Shown here: piece by piece, positions 26,464-45,345 of the stretch | How positions within the stretch are numbered: position 1 is the stretch's first letter | How the letters are laid out: every line of letters begins with the position of its first letter | From: Clostridia bacterium | Lineage (GTDB): Bacteria; Bacillota; Clostridia; Christensenellales; Aristaeellaceae | NCBI GenBank assembly: GCA_017447185.1 | Contig: JAFSOC010000030.1 | Span: 1 to 45,730 of the forward strand | DNA: 45,730 nt | Direction: 5' to 3' | Program-made: the position numbers and the translations under genes | The notes under the pieces: model-generated | What the model was told of the DNA's origin: nothing | The model's input: only the letters and a program-made list of their open reading frames with translations | The model's database searches: none

Positions 26464-27240
26464 CATCCTGTATGAAGACAACCATGTGCTCGTGGCGATC
26501 AAGCCGCCGAACATGCTCTCCCAGGCGGACCAGACGGGGGATACGGATATCCTGACCCTGCTGAAGGAATACATCCGGGAGAAGTACCACAAGCCGGGGA
26601 ACGTCTACCTGGGCCTGGTGCACCGGCTGGACCGGCCGGTGGGCGGGCTGATGGTATTTGCCCGGACGAGCAAGGCTGCAGCCCGGCTGGACGCCCAGAT
26701 GCGGGAGCACGAGATGGGCCGGGAATACCTGTGCGTGGCCATGGGCGAGGCGGAGGAGAAATTCACCCTGACGGACTACCTGATCCACGATCCGATTTCC
26801 AACAAGGAAACGGTATGCGAGGCAGACATGAAGGGCGGAAAGCTGGCGATCCTGCACGGACGGTGCATTGAGCGCCGGGAGGGAACCAGCCTGTGCGGCA
26901 TCAAGCTGCAGACGGGGCGGAAGCACCAGATCCGGGCGCAGATGAGCGCCGCGGGACTGCCGCTGTGGGGCGACAATCGCTACGGCAGCGGAATTCCCGG
27001 ACAGCAGATTGCCCTGTGGGGATACAAGCTGACGTTTGAGCACCCGATTACCCACGAAACCATGACGTTCCACAGCATGCCGGAAGGCAACGTGTGGAAC
27101 CTGTATGCCGACCTGCTGACGATTCCGGAGGACACGGAGGAGAAGAAGGAACCGGATCAGATCCTGATCCGCCCGGAGGTCGTGCAGAAGCTGGAAGAGT
27201 TTGATAAATACAAGCCGGTCGGAGTGGACGAACTGCTGTA

Positions 27241-32956: not shown

Positions 32957-33247
32957 TTATGCGCAGCTTAATTTGCGGATTTTTTCCTTTTTCCCGGGAC
33001 GAAGGTAGCTCAGCATTTCCTGGACCTTCTCTCCACCGGCAATTCCGCCTACGACCGCGCCGCCGACGGTTCCGCCGACAAATCCGACTGCTCCGCCAAC
33101 CGGACCGGCGGCTATAAGGCCGGTTATGGTCCCGCCTACGCAGCCGATTGCGGCGCCGGCGACTGCTCCCTTTACACGGTTCCAAAGGTCTCCGCCAGTA
33201 ATCATTTCCATTTCGTCCAGATTCAGTTCCATTGTATTTGTATTCAT
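32957..33247 (-). CDS. Double-glycine-leader peptide with a glycine-zipper cargo (bacteriocin-like)
   Basis: The 96-residue precursor starts with MNTNTMELNLDEMEMITGG, a classical double-glycine leader that C39-peptidase ABC exporters remove. The remaining 77 residues begin DLWNRVKGAVAGAAIG and are full of GxxxG steps (GCVGGTITGLIAAG, VGGAVGFVGGTVGGAVVGG), then end in a basic tail RPGKKEKIRKLSCA. This is the plan of class II bacteriocins of the two-peptide or Blp type that insert as helix pairs into membranes. ATG 33247 is chosen because AAGGA lies 10 nt upstream; GTG 33265 and ATG 33256 are weaker. No immunity protein or exporter gene lies next to it, so secretion would have to rely on machinery elsewhere. 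Antibacterial activity is an inference. Confidence 0.7.
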   Translation of the reverse strand: MNTNTMELNLDEMEMITGGDLWNRVKGAVAGAAIGCVGGTITGLIAAGPVGGAVGFVGGTVGGAVVGGIAGGEKVQEMLSYLRPGKKEKIRKLSCA

Positions 33248-33407
33248 AATATTCATTTCCTTCACTTTCTCTTTATTCGGCCGGCCTGTTTTGCCAACCT
33301 TGCATGTATATACGCAGCCTTTGGAAGGAATGGCAGTTGAGGATCCCCCGTTTTGTGGATAGTGAATACCATTTTATGAAAGAATGCAGTTACAACCGCT
33401 TTAAAAA

Positions 33408-33454
33408 GTGCAAATTTTGCACACGGAATTGACAACAAGATGCAAATTGTGCAT
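33408..33454 (+). promoter_or_regulatory. Paired palindromic operators of the mntA-hepT promoter
   Basis: GTGCAAATTTTGCAC (33408-33422) is a perfect 15-nt palindrome. ATGCAAATTGTGCAT (33440-33454) matches it with one mismatched pair. Their centres are 32 nt apart, about three helical turns, on either side of the -35 and overlapping the -10. Both fit a dimeric HTH regulator such as the HTH-MntA protein encoded just downstream. Confidence 0.7.
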
Positions 33455-33457
33455 AAT
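33429..33457 (+). promoter_or_regulatory. Promoter of mntA-hepT
   Basis: TTGACA (33429-33434), 17 nt, CATAAT (33452-33457): a near-consensus promoter 25 nt before the mntA start. Confidence 0.8.
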
Positions 33458-33481
33458 ACAGGCAGAGAGGAGATGCAAGAT

Positions 33482-33967
33482 ATGACGGAACTGAAATTGC
33501 TGCGGATGAAAAGCAGACTGACGCAGAAGGAAGCAGCACAGAAAATCGGAATATCACTGCGTTCCTATGTTTCCTATGAAAATGAAGATGCACTGTCAAA
33601 AACACCCAAGTATCGGTTCCTGCTGGCTGAAATGAATGAACTCGTCCGGCTTGATGAAGAGCATGGAATCCTGACAGTGGATGAAATCAAAACGATATGC
33701 AGCGGAATCCTGAAAGACTATCCAGTACAGTATTGCTATCTCTTTGGTTCCTATGCAAAGGGAACAGCATCTCCAGCAAGCGATGTCGACTTGCTGGTTT
33801 CCTCCGAAATTACCGGTTTGCGCTTCTATGAACTGACTGAAAAACTCAGGGAAGCTCTGCATAAGAAAATCGATCTGTTGGACGTGAAACAGCTTGCCGG
33901 TAATGAGGAACTGCTGAACGAAGTGCTAAGGGACGGAGTAAAGATATATGGACAATGTAAAAAATGA
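33482..33967 (+). CDS. mntA: MntA-type nucleotidyltransferase antitoxin with N-terminal HTH
   Basis: The 161-residue protein joins an XRE-like helix-turn-helix (residues about 1-55, SRLTQKEAAQKIGISLRSYV) to a minimal nucleotidyltransferase with the motif GSYAKGTASPASDVD (G89-S90, ten residues, D101-x-D103). MntA enzymes neutralise HepT toxins by adding AMP to a tyrosine next to the HEPN active site. Known MntA proteins of this class are often shorter and lack the HTH, so this version can probably also bind DNA and repress its own promoter; the two palindromes upstream fit that. ATG 33482 has GGAGA about 9 nt upstream. Its end overlaps hepT by 20 nt. Codons are more AT-rich than in flanking genes, a sign of transfer. 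Confidence 0.85.
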   Translation: MTELKLLRMKSRLTQKEAAQKIGISLRSYVSYENEDALSKTPKYRFLLAEMNELVRLDEEHGILTVDEIKTICSGILKDYPVQYCYLFGSYAKGTASPASDVDLLVSSEITGLRFYELTEKLREALHKKIDLLDVKQLAGNEELLNEVLRDGVKIYGQCKK

Positions 33968-34289
33968 CAAGTATTATATTGGCAGGATTTTTGAGGACCT
34001 GTCTTACATTATTCGGCATATGCAGGAAACAAGTGCTGAAGATTTTTCCAACAATGAACTTCTTCAGGATTCAATGATGTTCAGGCTGATTCAGATATCA
34101 GAAAACGCCCGGAAGCTGAGTGATCAGTACCGGGAAGAGCATTCCATTATTCCTTGGACTGCGATATTCGGGCTTCGCAACCGGATTGTTCATGATTATG
34201 GGAACGTTGCCCTTGATATTGTTTATGACACACTGAAAAAAGATATTCCGGATCTGCTGAATACTATGAAAGAAAACCTGGACGAATAG
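33948..34289 (+). CDS. hepT: HEPN-domain toxin HepT
   Basis: The 113-residue all-helical protein is the ribonuclease toxin of the MNT-HEPN pair. The RNase motif R77-N-R-I-V-H82-D-Y84 is intact, including Y84, which the partner AMPylates in the characterised system. The N-terminal IGRIFEDLSYIIRHMQETS and the ENARKLSD helix are typical. GGAG lies before the ATG. It overlaps mntA, so the antitoxin is made first and the two are translated together. The frame is complete, so the system may be functional. Confidence 0.87.
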   Translation: MDNVKNDKYYIGRIFEDLSYIIRHMQETSAEDFSNNELLQDSMMFRLIQISENARKLSDQYREEHSIIPWTAIFGLRNRIVHDYGNVALDIVYDTLKKDIPDLLNTMKENLDE

Positions 34290-34559: not shown

Positions 34560-34800
34560 ATTATTTCACTAAATTTCCTATTATTTCACTTTTTTTCATA
34601 GGCCCCTACGTGGTAATGTTATGCTATCCAAAATAAGACTTGGGTAGCTTGCCGGGGGTCTGTGAACGCAAGCAACGCAACTAATTCTTATTATATTAAT
34701 ATCAAAAAATACAACAGTATAGAGTGAACACGGTAAAAAATTAAATCAATATATAAGAAAAAAGTTGCGAACTTGCGTACTTGCGTCACGAAGAAAGGTG
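34560..34800 (+). other. Structured tandem element, copy A (candidate noncoding RNA)
   Basis: A 20-nt direct-repeat pair (TTTCACTAAATT type, 34563 and 34583) is followed by a conserved block from 34607 (TACGTGGTAATGTTATGC, then CCGGGGGT). A long hairpin follows: ACGCAAG (34666-34672) pairs with CTTGCGT (34772-34778), CGCAAC (34676-34681) with GTTGCG (34764-34769), and TTCTTAT-T-ATATT (34685-34697) with AATATATAAGAA (34748-34759). Copy B lies 286 nt downstream. Transcription direction is not known; the plus strand is shown for convenience. There is no open frame of note. Confidence 0.5.
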
Positions 34801-34827
34801 GTCGGGATCAGGGCAAAGTGAAAAAAT

Positions 34828-35090
34828 TTTTTCCGCAAATTGCCGGTCATTTCCGCAAATATCCGGTTATATCCTCTTTTATCCCGGGTCCATATGTGGT
34901 AATATTATGCTAACCAAGATAAGAGTTGGGCACCTCACCGGGGGTGGGTGAACACGAACAACACAAGCTCCCCTTATTATATTAAATATAATATTTACTA
35001 CAGTACTACTGAGTGTACAGTGAATACCATTAATCATATATAGAAAAATGCTGTGATTCCTGTGCACCTGTGTCACGAAGAAGGGGAGTG
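34828..35090 (+). other. Structured tandem element, copy B (candidate noncoding RNA)
   Basis: It repeats the plan of copy A: direct repeats TTTCCGCAAAT at 34830 and 34850, the core from 34893 (TATGTGGTAATATTATGC), the CCGGGGGTGGGTGAACAC block and the ending GTCACGAAGAAG. The long stem is kept: CACAAGC (34962-34968) with GCTGTG (35050-35055), GAA (34956) with TTC (35057), CAC (34953) with GTG (35062). Two aligned G-C pairs of copy A are A-T pairs here. A local hairpin, CACCTCACC-GGG-GGTGGGTG (34931-34950), is seen only in this copy. Confidence 0.5.
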
Positions 35091-35131
35091 TTTAGTGAAA
35101 AGTGGGTAGTTTGCGAGTGCTTGCGGTACCC

Positions 35132-35187
35132 CACGGGGACGGTTCCAGTGATACCCGCTTCGGGGTACCACCGAAACCGTCCCCGTG
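35132..35187. repeat. Long inverted repeat (nested hairpin)
   Basis: Perfect 13-nt arms, CACGGGGACGGTT (35132-35144) and AACCGTCCCCGTG (35175-35187), enclose a second hairpin, TACCC-GCTTC-GGGGTA. GGGGACGGTT-type palindromes are common dispersed REP-like elements in many genomes. A related stretch (GTCGGGGACGGGTTGGG) lies at 35761. Confidence 0.75.
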
Positions 35188-35299
35188 AAGCACCTAGTCG
35201 AGTGGCCTGCGCCCCCGTGAAGCACCTAGTCGAGTGGCCTGCGGCCCCTGAAGCACCTAGTCGTGTGGCCTGCACTCCATGAAGTGCCTGGTCGAGTTG
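35185..35299. repeat. 31-32-nt minisatellite, 3.5 copies
   Basis: TGAAGCACCTAGTCGAGTGG starts at 35186 and 35218 with variants at 35249 and 35280 (periods 32, 31, 31). There are no unique spacers, so it is not a CRISPR. The first unit overlaps the right arm of the inverted repeat. Confidence 0.8.
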
Positions 35300-35413
35300 A
35301 AAAAGTCTTTTTGTAAAATGCTGCCATCTTGCTGATTTGGTGCGTATAAAAAGATGTCAGGTGAATAACACCGGACAATGAGAAAGAAAATAAATTGAGA
35401 GGAGATTACAAAT

Positions 35414-35665
35414 ATGGAAATCAATGAAGTCAATGTCAATGAACTGGAAAAAGCAGTAGGCGGCCGCGGCGGATACCGGTATCCCCCGGAATGGATCGAA
35501 GGCCTGGAGATTTACCAGATCAAGCGGGGCGACAATCTGACCAAGATCGCCCGGAAGTATCATACCACCTGGATGCATCTGCAGGAGCTGAACGCGGATG
35601 TGATCCCGAACAAGAATGACATCACCGACGGATACTACATCTACGTGCCGGCGCTCCCTGACTAA
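35414..35665 (+). CDS. Double-glycine-leader peptide carrying a LysM domain
   Basis: The 83-residue product starts MEINEVNVNELEKAVGG, a double-glycine leader (cleavage expected after G17), then a short RGGYRYPPEWIEGLE linker and one LysM domain (about 33-79: YQIKRGDNLTKIARKYHTTW, LQELNADVIPNKNDI, GYYIYVPA). LysM domains bind the N-acetylglucosamine chains of peptidoglycan or chitin. A LysM domain released through a peptide exporter instead of the Sec route is an unusual design; the product would be a free 66-residue wall-binding protein. GAGAGGAG lies 9 nt before the ATG. Its leader resembles that of the glycine-zipper peptide 2.2 kb upstream, so both may use one exporter, which is not in the window. 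Confidence 0.8.
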   Translation: MEINEVNVNELEKAVGGRGGYRYPPEWIEGLEIYQIKRGDNLTKIARKYHTTWMHLQELNADVIPNKNDITDGYYIYVPALPD

Positions 35666-35711
35666 GATATCCTTCAATCCAAACTCCTTTTTATCATCTT
35701 CCCCTAAAAAA

Positions 35712-35733
35712 CCCTCCGGTGATTGCCGGAGGG
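35712..35733 (-). terminator. Hairpin with T-tract on the minus strand
   Basis: An 8-bp perfect stem (CCCTCCGG / CCGGAGGG) with a 6-nt loop has AAAAAA on its left, which reads as a T-tract on the minus strand. On the plus strand it has no T-run but still follows the LysM-peptide gene by 47 nt. Confidence 0.5.
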
Positions 35734-35819
35734 CGATTCTGCATATCACTTTTTTGGAACGTCGGGGACGGGTTGGGGGAACAGGATTCGGAAAAAAAGA
35801 CGCAGGCACCTAAAAAAGT

Positions 35820-35883
35820 GGTGCACTAAAAAACGCTGAAAGCAAGTAAAATCAACGGTCGCATGGATTTTTGGTGCACTAAA
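35820..35883. repeat. Direct repeat GGTGCACTAAA
   Basis: Two exact copies, 35820-35830 and 35873-35883, frame the last part of the intergenic stretch (35666-36012), which otherwise holds no gene. Confidence 0.5.
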
Positions 35884-45169: not shown

Positions 45170-45345
45170 ACTGCTTTTCCGTCCTTTTGCCTGAGAGATT
45201 TGGCTGCACGAGCGTGCGCCATTGCACCTTCGGCACCGCCGAAAACGGCGGATTCTCCGGAATGTCGTCCGCATGCAGTCGGTTTACCTGAGAGCGTTAC
45301 TCCTTCGGCGGCCCCTGCGGAGCCTTTTCCTGCAAGCTTCTTCCG
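45170..45345 (-). ncRNA. Tandem glycine riboswitch
   Basis: On the minus strand two aptamers follow each other. The first holds GCCGAAGGAGTAACGCTCTC and CAGGTAAA. The second holds CCGGAGAATCCGCC, GCCGAAGGTGCAA and CTCTCAGGCAAAAGGACGG. These are the conserved cores of the glycine aptamer family. The terminator downstream would act as the switch. Glycine riboswitches in front of AGCS transporters may turn the gene off when glycine is plentiful, whereas those in front of gcv genes turn it on; the direction here cannot be read from the sequence. Confidence 0.93.

Follow-up and report, generated by a model that had tools for sequence, protein, structure and literature searches.

Two described systems come closest to the locus reported here. 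The first is the origin of Streptococcus phage Sfi21, which is annotated in the phage record, after the primase gene, as 'origin of replication, 302 bp non-coding region, phage inhibitory sequence'. Read by eye, its inner part carries GTTAC words 8 bp apart in inverted arms that enclose an AT-rich stretch ending in ATATATAG. According to the accessible part of the published account, this element works as an origin that is activated by infection, its DNA blocks the accumulation of invading phage DNA, the effect depends on copy number and 17 of 25 phages were held off; immunity was also linked to a similar element that lies in a cryptic prophage (PMC6356513). The phenotype, phage-encoded resistance (Per), has been reported for lactococcal phages too. 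The second is a phage-derived chromosomal origin in Bartonella which, in the accessible text, drives amplification and run-off replication (PMC3610622). The accessible portions of PMC9040626 and PMC3445015 hold nothing on chromosomal origin copies, and the open literature searched, which excludes most subscription journals, yielded no account of chromosomal orphan phage origins as a defence.

The window (the whole stretch of DNA analysed, 45,730 nt) is contig C28 of a 2.9-Mb Clostridia genome (GenBank GCA_017447185.1, contig JAFSOC010000030.1). Two copies of an element, A and B, lie at 34560–35090 with a period of 286 nt. As an earlier note on this DNA had proposed, they are diverged copies of one another (157 nt at 71% identity without gaps; 240 nt at 71% by BLAST), and each is preceded by its own pair of 20-nt direct repeats (34561–34580/34581–34600 for A; 34830–34849/34850–34869, 85%, for B). 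The cores span 34662–34797 in A and 34948–35084 in B. The copies and the two genes preceding them are laid out as follows.

33440–33967, plus strand: gene for an HTH + MNT-like nucleotidyltransferase (Pfam Polbeta; PADLOC PDC-S09-like, 2e-14)
33948–34289, plus strand: gene for a HepT-like RNase
34561–34600, plus strand: iteron pair of A, TTTCACT type; similar segment at C25:125815–125897
34601–34661, plus strand: promoter-like segment and leader of A, with GTGGTAATGTTATGCTATCC at 34610–34629; similar to C32:48263–48282, upstream of a phage head-protease gene
34662–34682, plus strand: origin-like element A, 5′ arm with CGCAA words in inverted orientation; the same as in C15
34683–34757, plus strand: AT-rich loop of A, 75 nt
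34758–34797, plus strand: 3′ arm of A, with TTGCG three times at 8-bp spacing; equal to C15 over the 28 nt compared
34830–34884, plus strand: iterons of B, TTTCCGC type; similar segment within C32:48261–48335
34885–34947, plus strand: promoter-like segment and leader of B, with GTGGTAATATTATGCTAACC at 34896–34915
34948–34968, plus strand: origin-like element B, 5′ arm with imperfect words of the CACAA type
34969–35043, plus strand: AT-rich loop of B, about 75 nt
35044–35084, plus strand: 3′ arm of B, three CTGTG words

Each unit consists of a 5′ half and a 3′ half, each of which has its own relatives in the rest of the genome. The 5′ half, made up of iterons and a promoter-like GTGRTAATRTTATGCT segment, recurs alone at C32:48261–48335, C25:125815–125897 and C2:2276–2372 and the 3′ half alone at C15:16446–16580, while a third unit with both halves, about 250 nt apart, is present at C10:22254–22699. 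Nucleotide searches with the 531-nt region against phages, plasmids and E. coli gave no match, and a pattern of the 3′ arm of A gave none in viral contigs.

The segment C15:16446–16580 aligns with A at 76% identity over 136 nt. It sits between the gene for a 796-residue VapE protein (Pfam VapE-like, 4e-74; PHROG DNA helicase, 9e-281) and an endonuclease gene (PHROG, 5e-29; no Pfam match), the product of which we take to be of the VRR-NUC type. The gene run encodes an exonuclease, a Gp2.5-like single-stranded-DNA-binding/annealing protein, a family A DNA polymerase, VapE, the endonuclease and an SNF2 helicase (VapE, polymerase A and SNF2 are Pfam names) and is a phage replication module. Judged by sequence similarity, the cores of A, B and the C10 copy are homologous to this phage VapE–endonuclease intergenic element, which resembles a replication origin; the match to a phage repeat that the earlier note had named as speaking against its own reading was thus found in part.

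The plan of this element recurs at other loci. At the endonuclease-relative loci analysed (160, comprising 80 of 423 viral and 80 of 183 bacterial loci), the region upstream of the endonuclease has, at many of those listed, the same plan in other words: inverted short words, an AT-rich loop and the words in direct orientation, with the words in such arms about 8 bp apart. A 6-mer inverted-word score of at least 3 was reached at 56 of 119 distinct loci, whereas control windows taken from these loci reached it in 32 of 456 cases. At E ≤ 1e-3 the sequence model R2, described below, has a single match in each of 40 native loci out of 160, always upstream of the endonuclease, and no locus has two. 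We also applied a strict, sequence-independent grammar, in which a 5-mer occurs twice per arm, 7–11 bp apart, with the arms separated by 75–115 nt. Within 330 nt upstream of the endonuclease it was present at 26 of the 119 distinct loci (the other 93 fail it), with two places in the rest of these 795,302 b and one in a Markov sequence of that length. The 521,846 b of genus DNA analysed hold seven places with the grammar: four native, all between VapE and the endonuclease (C15 and loci L277, L280 and L284 from genomes G068, G006 and G012), and three orphan (A, G008a and G008c). Five Markov controls of 521,846 b each gave 0, 1, 0, 0 and 0 places. A passes the strict form of the plan (inverted word arms with a spacing of about 8 bp around an AT-rich loop) and B only a relaxed form.

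By layout, after the example of Sfi21, the native VapE–endonuclease intergenic element would be a replication origin. That the cores of A and B are phage-origin-like DNA is probable and well supported. The link to Sfi21 is one of layout only, since Pfam places the Sfi21 primase in a different subfamily (Pox_D5; the one domain in common with the C15 VapE is DUF5906, which in VapE scores 8e-5, below the cut-off) and no probe matched: neither the VapE C-terminus nor the endonuclease found a counterpart in Sfi21 DNA, and with the search applied the gene after the Sfi21 origin is no relative of the endonuclease. The identity of the VapE C-terminus is lower in three relatives, too slightly to count as evidence.

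Copies outside a replication module were sought across the genus. A search of 45 genus genomes with a covariance model (R1) built from 13 elements, of which A, B and C10 are orphans, found 15 matches at E ≤ 1, spread over nine genomes. These included new orphans in G022 (a tandem pair, a and b, at single-genome E values of 1.5e-4 and 0.001), G008 (copies a and e, 0.03 and 0.72) and G033:C80 (0.015). Reading the G008 locus by eye revealed four copies in tandem and a fifth 9 kb away; copies b–d were recognised in this way. The sequence model R2 (18 elements, ten orphan) was then run on 40 genus genomes, where 27 matches were found at E ≤ 0.1, 18 of them at E < 1e-5. Seven of these strong matches lie beside VapE (C15, G015:C32, G004:C55, where the endonuclease was not found, G016:C33, G033:C16, G033:C113 and G066:C39) and 11 are orphans (A, B, C10, the five of G008, the two of G022 and G033:C80); ten of the 11 were in the training set, so that only G033:C80 was new to the model. 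Family-wide, 308 genomes gave 20 matches at E ≤ 1e-4, consisting of the same 11 orphans and nine native loci. A shallow first look across the order, with eight candidates scored per genome, matched ten of 395 genomes. Beyond the genus it added a native locus in G194, a locus in G165 that has VapE but not the endonuclease, and no further orphan; six weak matches without VapE or endonuclease were taken for chance.

The orphans differ from the native elements in setting. C15 lies directly downstream of a helicase-primase gene, and A, B and C10 do not. Around the orphans (the window and regions of 19–20 kb, five in all) no pieces of VapE, endonuclease, terL or head protease were detected by tblastn at E ≤ 0.01, and the G008 and G022 genomes have no VapE match at E ≤ 1e-30, a cut-off that leaves room for weaker relatives. 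Tandem orphans are present at three sites in three species, namely the window, G008 and G022. Neighbouring copies often carry different words: TTGCG then CTGTG in the window, GTTCA then TTGTG in G022, and in G008 TGTCAC (a and b), TTGTTCA (c and e) and a mixture of TGTAC and GTTCA (d). Mean arm pairing is 11.8 in orphans (n = 11) and 11.05 in natives (n = 10). In the four tandem G008 copies it is significant (reached by 0, 2, 0 and 5 of 500 dinucleotide shuffles), but not in B, C10, G022b and G033:C80 (26, 247, 288 and 117 of 500), the last of which has a poorly pairing 3′ arm. Among natives it is not significant in G004, G066 and L161 (104, 376 and 52 of 500), and G016 is just under the 5% level.

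Between A and C15 the 21-nt 5′ arm is identical (by eye) and the 3′ arm is 100% identical over 28 nt, while the loop is 68% identical; between A and B the loop is 75% and the 3′ arm 64% identical. The A/B contrast depends on where the boundaries are set, because wider arms differ about as much as the loop (5′ arm 15/21, 3′ arm 30/41, loop 58/75). The loop of A shares slightly more with B (75%) than with C15 (68%), which has the same words as A; the gap amounts to some five bases and is not significant alone. G008 copies with clearly different words (a and b versus c, d and e) have loops that are 65–83% identical, compared with 60–71% among five native genus loops, and the loop length is 72–77 nt in all 16 genus elements measured (11 orphan and five native, with anchors that we set). 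The words of A match those of the C15 module and the TGTG of B matches the G015 module of the genus; the G004 and G016 modules carry TTGTCC and TGTCA words. For the GTTCA words of G008 and G022, a pattern search of viral contigs established no native partner: the pattern was too loose, with at least 120 stretches, and among 80 examined the endonuclease was in none and distant VapE pieces were in three.

Folding separated the two copies. The long hairpin described earlier for A was borne out (z of −4.42 as DNA, with one of 200 shuffles as good, and −4.43 as RNA, with none of 200), and its arm pairing was matched by none of 2000 mononucleotide and none of 500 dinucleotide shuffles. The matching stem claimed for B was not confirmed (z of −0.92 as DNA, with 35 of 200 shuffles as good, and −1.29 as RNA, with 19 of 200); mononucleotide shuffles equalled its arm pairing in 3 of 2000 cases, dinucleotide shuffles in 26 of 500. 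The 6-mer inverted-word test scores A at 4 and B at 0, and B is the weaker copy of the two. Of the two G–C to A–T changes noted between the copies, the one at pair 8/138 (columns of A1) is kept as aligned, whereas the pairing at 21/121 needs a shift of 1 nt in B. They are coherent word changes, since the words switch in both arms, where B has TGTG, and A agrees with its phage homologue C15 in having TTGCG. What stands of the earlier proposal of a structure-selected element is therefore a constrained and unclassified element, both arms of which change together and which is plausibly a protein-bound DNA; RNA-style pair-by-pair covariation does not appear to describe the changes. RNAalifold gave no consensus pairs on 13 relatives, with an alignment not registered on the stems, and for ten named pairs 76% of cells were paired, with a modest covariation score that was reached by 13 of 500 shuffles. 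As the note had judged, no known RNA family was recognised: in Rfam nothing reached the gathering score in the A/B region, and at E ≤ 10 all matches were sub-threshold.

The 5′ half points to another part of the phage genome. A similar segment lies upstream of the DUF2213/head-protease gene that opens a phage structural cluster at C32:27.6–48.3 kb (portal, terL and protease identified by search) and, by eye, is directly followed by a terminator-like hairpin; the arrangement at the head-protease gene of the G015 phage is similar, also by eye. From this resemblance we infer that the 5′ half may be a late promoter with activator sites. Such a late-promoter-like segment precedes A, B and C10; a scan for the sigma-70 consensus did not report it. 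In the G015 phage the origin and the protease are about 10 kb apart, and A and B are therefore composites. A promoter pattern had six matches in viral contigs, all without iterons and origin, and an iteron pattern run over 41 genomes was discarded as too strict, as it missed even known copies.

Several further observations concern these phage pieces. The structural cluster C32:27620–48340 (L203, L204) has an unusual order, with the head protease first and portal and terL last; the G015 phage, unlike C32, has terL before the protease. The segment C10:22254–22890 (L206) comprises a late-promoter-like segment, an early leader (C15:9908–9973), the origin, the pre-protease hairpin, the terL end with a GTGCAC repeat and a start codon, with no coding sequences. 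Strings of phage intergenic pieces are also present on C34, C2 and C25. A 91-nt dispersed repeat with two direct GGTGCACT boxes is found in the window (35793–35883) and at C2:2387–2477, C10:22762–22852 and 26982–27072, C25:125709–125799, C32:28229–28320 and C34:15001–15090; in C32 it lies between the terL stop codon and a gene for a 201-residue protein without family matches, and elsewhere it is mostly intergenic. The GTGCAC repeat beside terL in C32 was considered as a packaging site and rejected: the gene that follows it, which has no PHROG or Pfam match, may resemble a transposase, and the repeat was not seen after the 11 other terL genes listed, one of which (L285) has a GTTACACTAAA repeat in that place.

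The flanks of A and B are as first described, with the nucleotidyltransferase and HepT genes upstream and a LysM peptide gene downstream. The defence link drawn from this position survives in part: candidate defence genes do adjoin, and they are candidates only. The G008 array follows a PADLOC PDC-S06 homologue (3e-251) and a 222-residue protein without matches, and the G022 array adjoins an ABC transporter and a GGDEF/EAL regulator; of the two L301 proteins run against PADLOC, one had no match, and the match of the transporter to mads genes probably reflects its generic ATPase. From these neighbours at the window, G008 and G022, the defence link is limited to two of three arrays and to candidate systems. 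Pfam scans of five window and nine L301/L302 proteins revealed no integrase, regulator or replication gene of a PICI-like phage satellite. Three consecutive G008 genes by the fifth orphan origin (L302:12772–15873) have no Pfam matches and one weak CARF-like PADLOC match (4e-4); they are possibly a new defence cassette.

Other features of the window were noted in passing. Positions 35125–35280 hold a 32-nt imperfect palindrome (beginning GGTACCCCACGGGGACGG) followed by three 32-nt GC-rich direct repeats (GTGAAGCACCTAGTCGAGTGGCCTGC). The LysM peptide gene (35309–35738) has a GG-type leader and relatives at C34:5278–5712 and C10:33966–34295, with upstream DNA 72–76% identical, and GG-leader-like peptides were seen by eye at window 32957–33265 and C10:21862–22224. 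Tandem glycine riboswitch aptamers lie at 45177–45342 on the minus strand, near the contig end.

The reading that we tentatively prefer is that A and B may be orphan phage origins kept as decoys against several phages. Phage origin copies would have been placed behind a phage late-promoter-like segment in the host chromosome, and the phage initiator, either VapE or a partner, would bind to their words. On infection by a phage with the same words, the chromosomal copies would compete for the initiator, and titration or misfiring in the infected cell would stall phage replication, as has been described for the origin of Sfi21 (Per). Where neighbouring copies differ in words, each would act against other phages; more speculatively, the phage-type promoter and own iterons of A and B might add control. 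In favour we count the place of the C15 homologue between VapE and the endonuclease, the identity of the words of A and C15, the grammar counts, the layout and the reported effect of the Sfi21 origin, the share of orphans among strong matches (11 of 18), the lack of phage-gene pieces around them, tandem copies as opposed to single native ones, orphan arm pairing close to that of natives and the defence neighbours. Against it we count that the reported Sfi21 effect depends on copy number and two chromosomal copies may be too few; that the link to Sfi21 is one of layout; the 93 native loci that fail the strict grammar; the ten orphans that had served to train R2; the weak arms of four orphans and three natives and the A and B arms that differ about as much as the loop; the phage-piece strings on C10, C34, C2 and C25, which fit prophage decay; and defence neighbours that are candidates at two of three arrays, together with GTTCA words without a native partner. 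The fuller version, a gene-free multi-target anti-phage locus in which tandem origin decoys each record the initiator specificity of one phage and are re-specified by arm-word changes on a constant backbone, we consider rather unlikely.

That A, B and C10 are remnants of deleted prophages, short cis-elements that have outlived their genes and have no present function, is a real possibility, albeit one that we would not expect to hold. As the Sfi21 primase proved to be of another subfamily, confidence in the origin and decoy assignments was lowered and that in remnants raised. The stringing together of phage intergenic pieces at C10:22254–22890 is what decay would leave, C34:14950–15420 resembles a partly deleted phage locus, and the poorly paired 3′ arm of G033:C80, like the weak arms of B, C10 and G022b, fits the loss of function. 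However, the arms of A equal those of C15 while the loop is only 68% identical, the four adjacent G008 copies all retain significantly paired arms with no phage sequence by the probes used, and tandem copies without phage genes occur in three species.

It is less probable still, and in our view quite unlikely, that the orphans are origins fired in trans, with a phage or domesticated module such as C15 replicating from them and thereby amplifying the neighbourhood for packaging or serving gene-poor satellites. The words of A are those of the C15 module in the same genome, a late-type promoter segment stands before A, B and C10, and a phage-derived amplifying origin has a precedent in Bartonella (accessible text of PMC3610622). 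The lack of a VapE match at the cut-off used in G008 and G022 nevertheless means that no resident module of the VapE type could fire their arrays, and the 14 neighbour proteins scanned included no satellite gene or integrase. The structured noncoding RNA first proposed is very improbable: A folds well and has a promoter-like segment upstream, but the fold of B is not significant, RNAalifold gave no consensus pair on the 13 relatives as aligned, no Rfam family matches at its gathering score, and the common feature is a spaced word, direct and inverted, which is the layout of protein-binding DNA sites.

Defence searches seek genes, and if noncoding origin decoys do protect cells then gene-based surveys miss them. 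With the grammar, candidate origins in VapE-type phages can be sought as inverted arms of spaced words that lie downstream of the gene for the helicase-primase, and one can ask which phages a stray copy would target. Stray arrays of this kind are also present in related species, and bacteria may be keeping the copies as phage bait; even as debris, they record the phage lineages that have entered the genus.

Set beside the known systems, A and B share homologous sequence and the arm–loop–arm plan with the native Clostridia VapE–endonuclease element. The native element is flanked by both genes and has at most one model match per locus (160 loci), whereas A and B lack the VapE and endonuclease genes and carry the promoter–iteron segment. 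The Bartonella origin is likewise a phage origin retained by a chromosome, but in the accessible text a six-gene phage remnant surrounds it at a single site (PMC3610622); here there are several copies with differing words and no phage genes found beside them. With the Per element of Sfi21, A and B have in common the noncoding phage origin plan of inverted short-word arms around an AT-rich loop, which in Sfi21 adjoins the primase gene. Per involves the Sfi21 element or a cryptic-prophage copy, with a primase of another subfamily, whereas the element described here is alone in the chromosome, in tandem, with different words and twice in genomes without a VapE match. Origin-based resistance is already known from Per; set against the open literature searched, what appears new here is the stand-alone chromosomal tandem array with different words.
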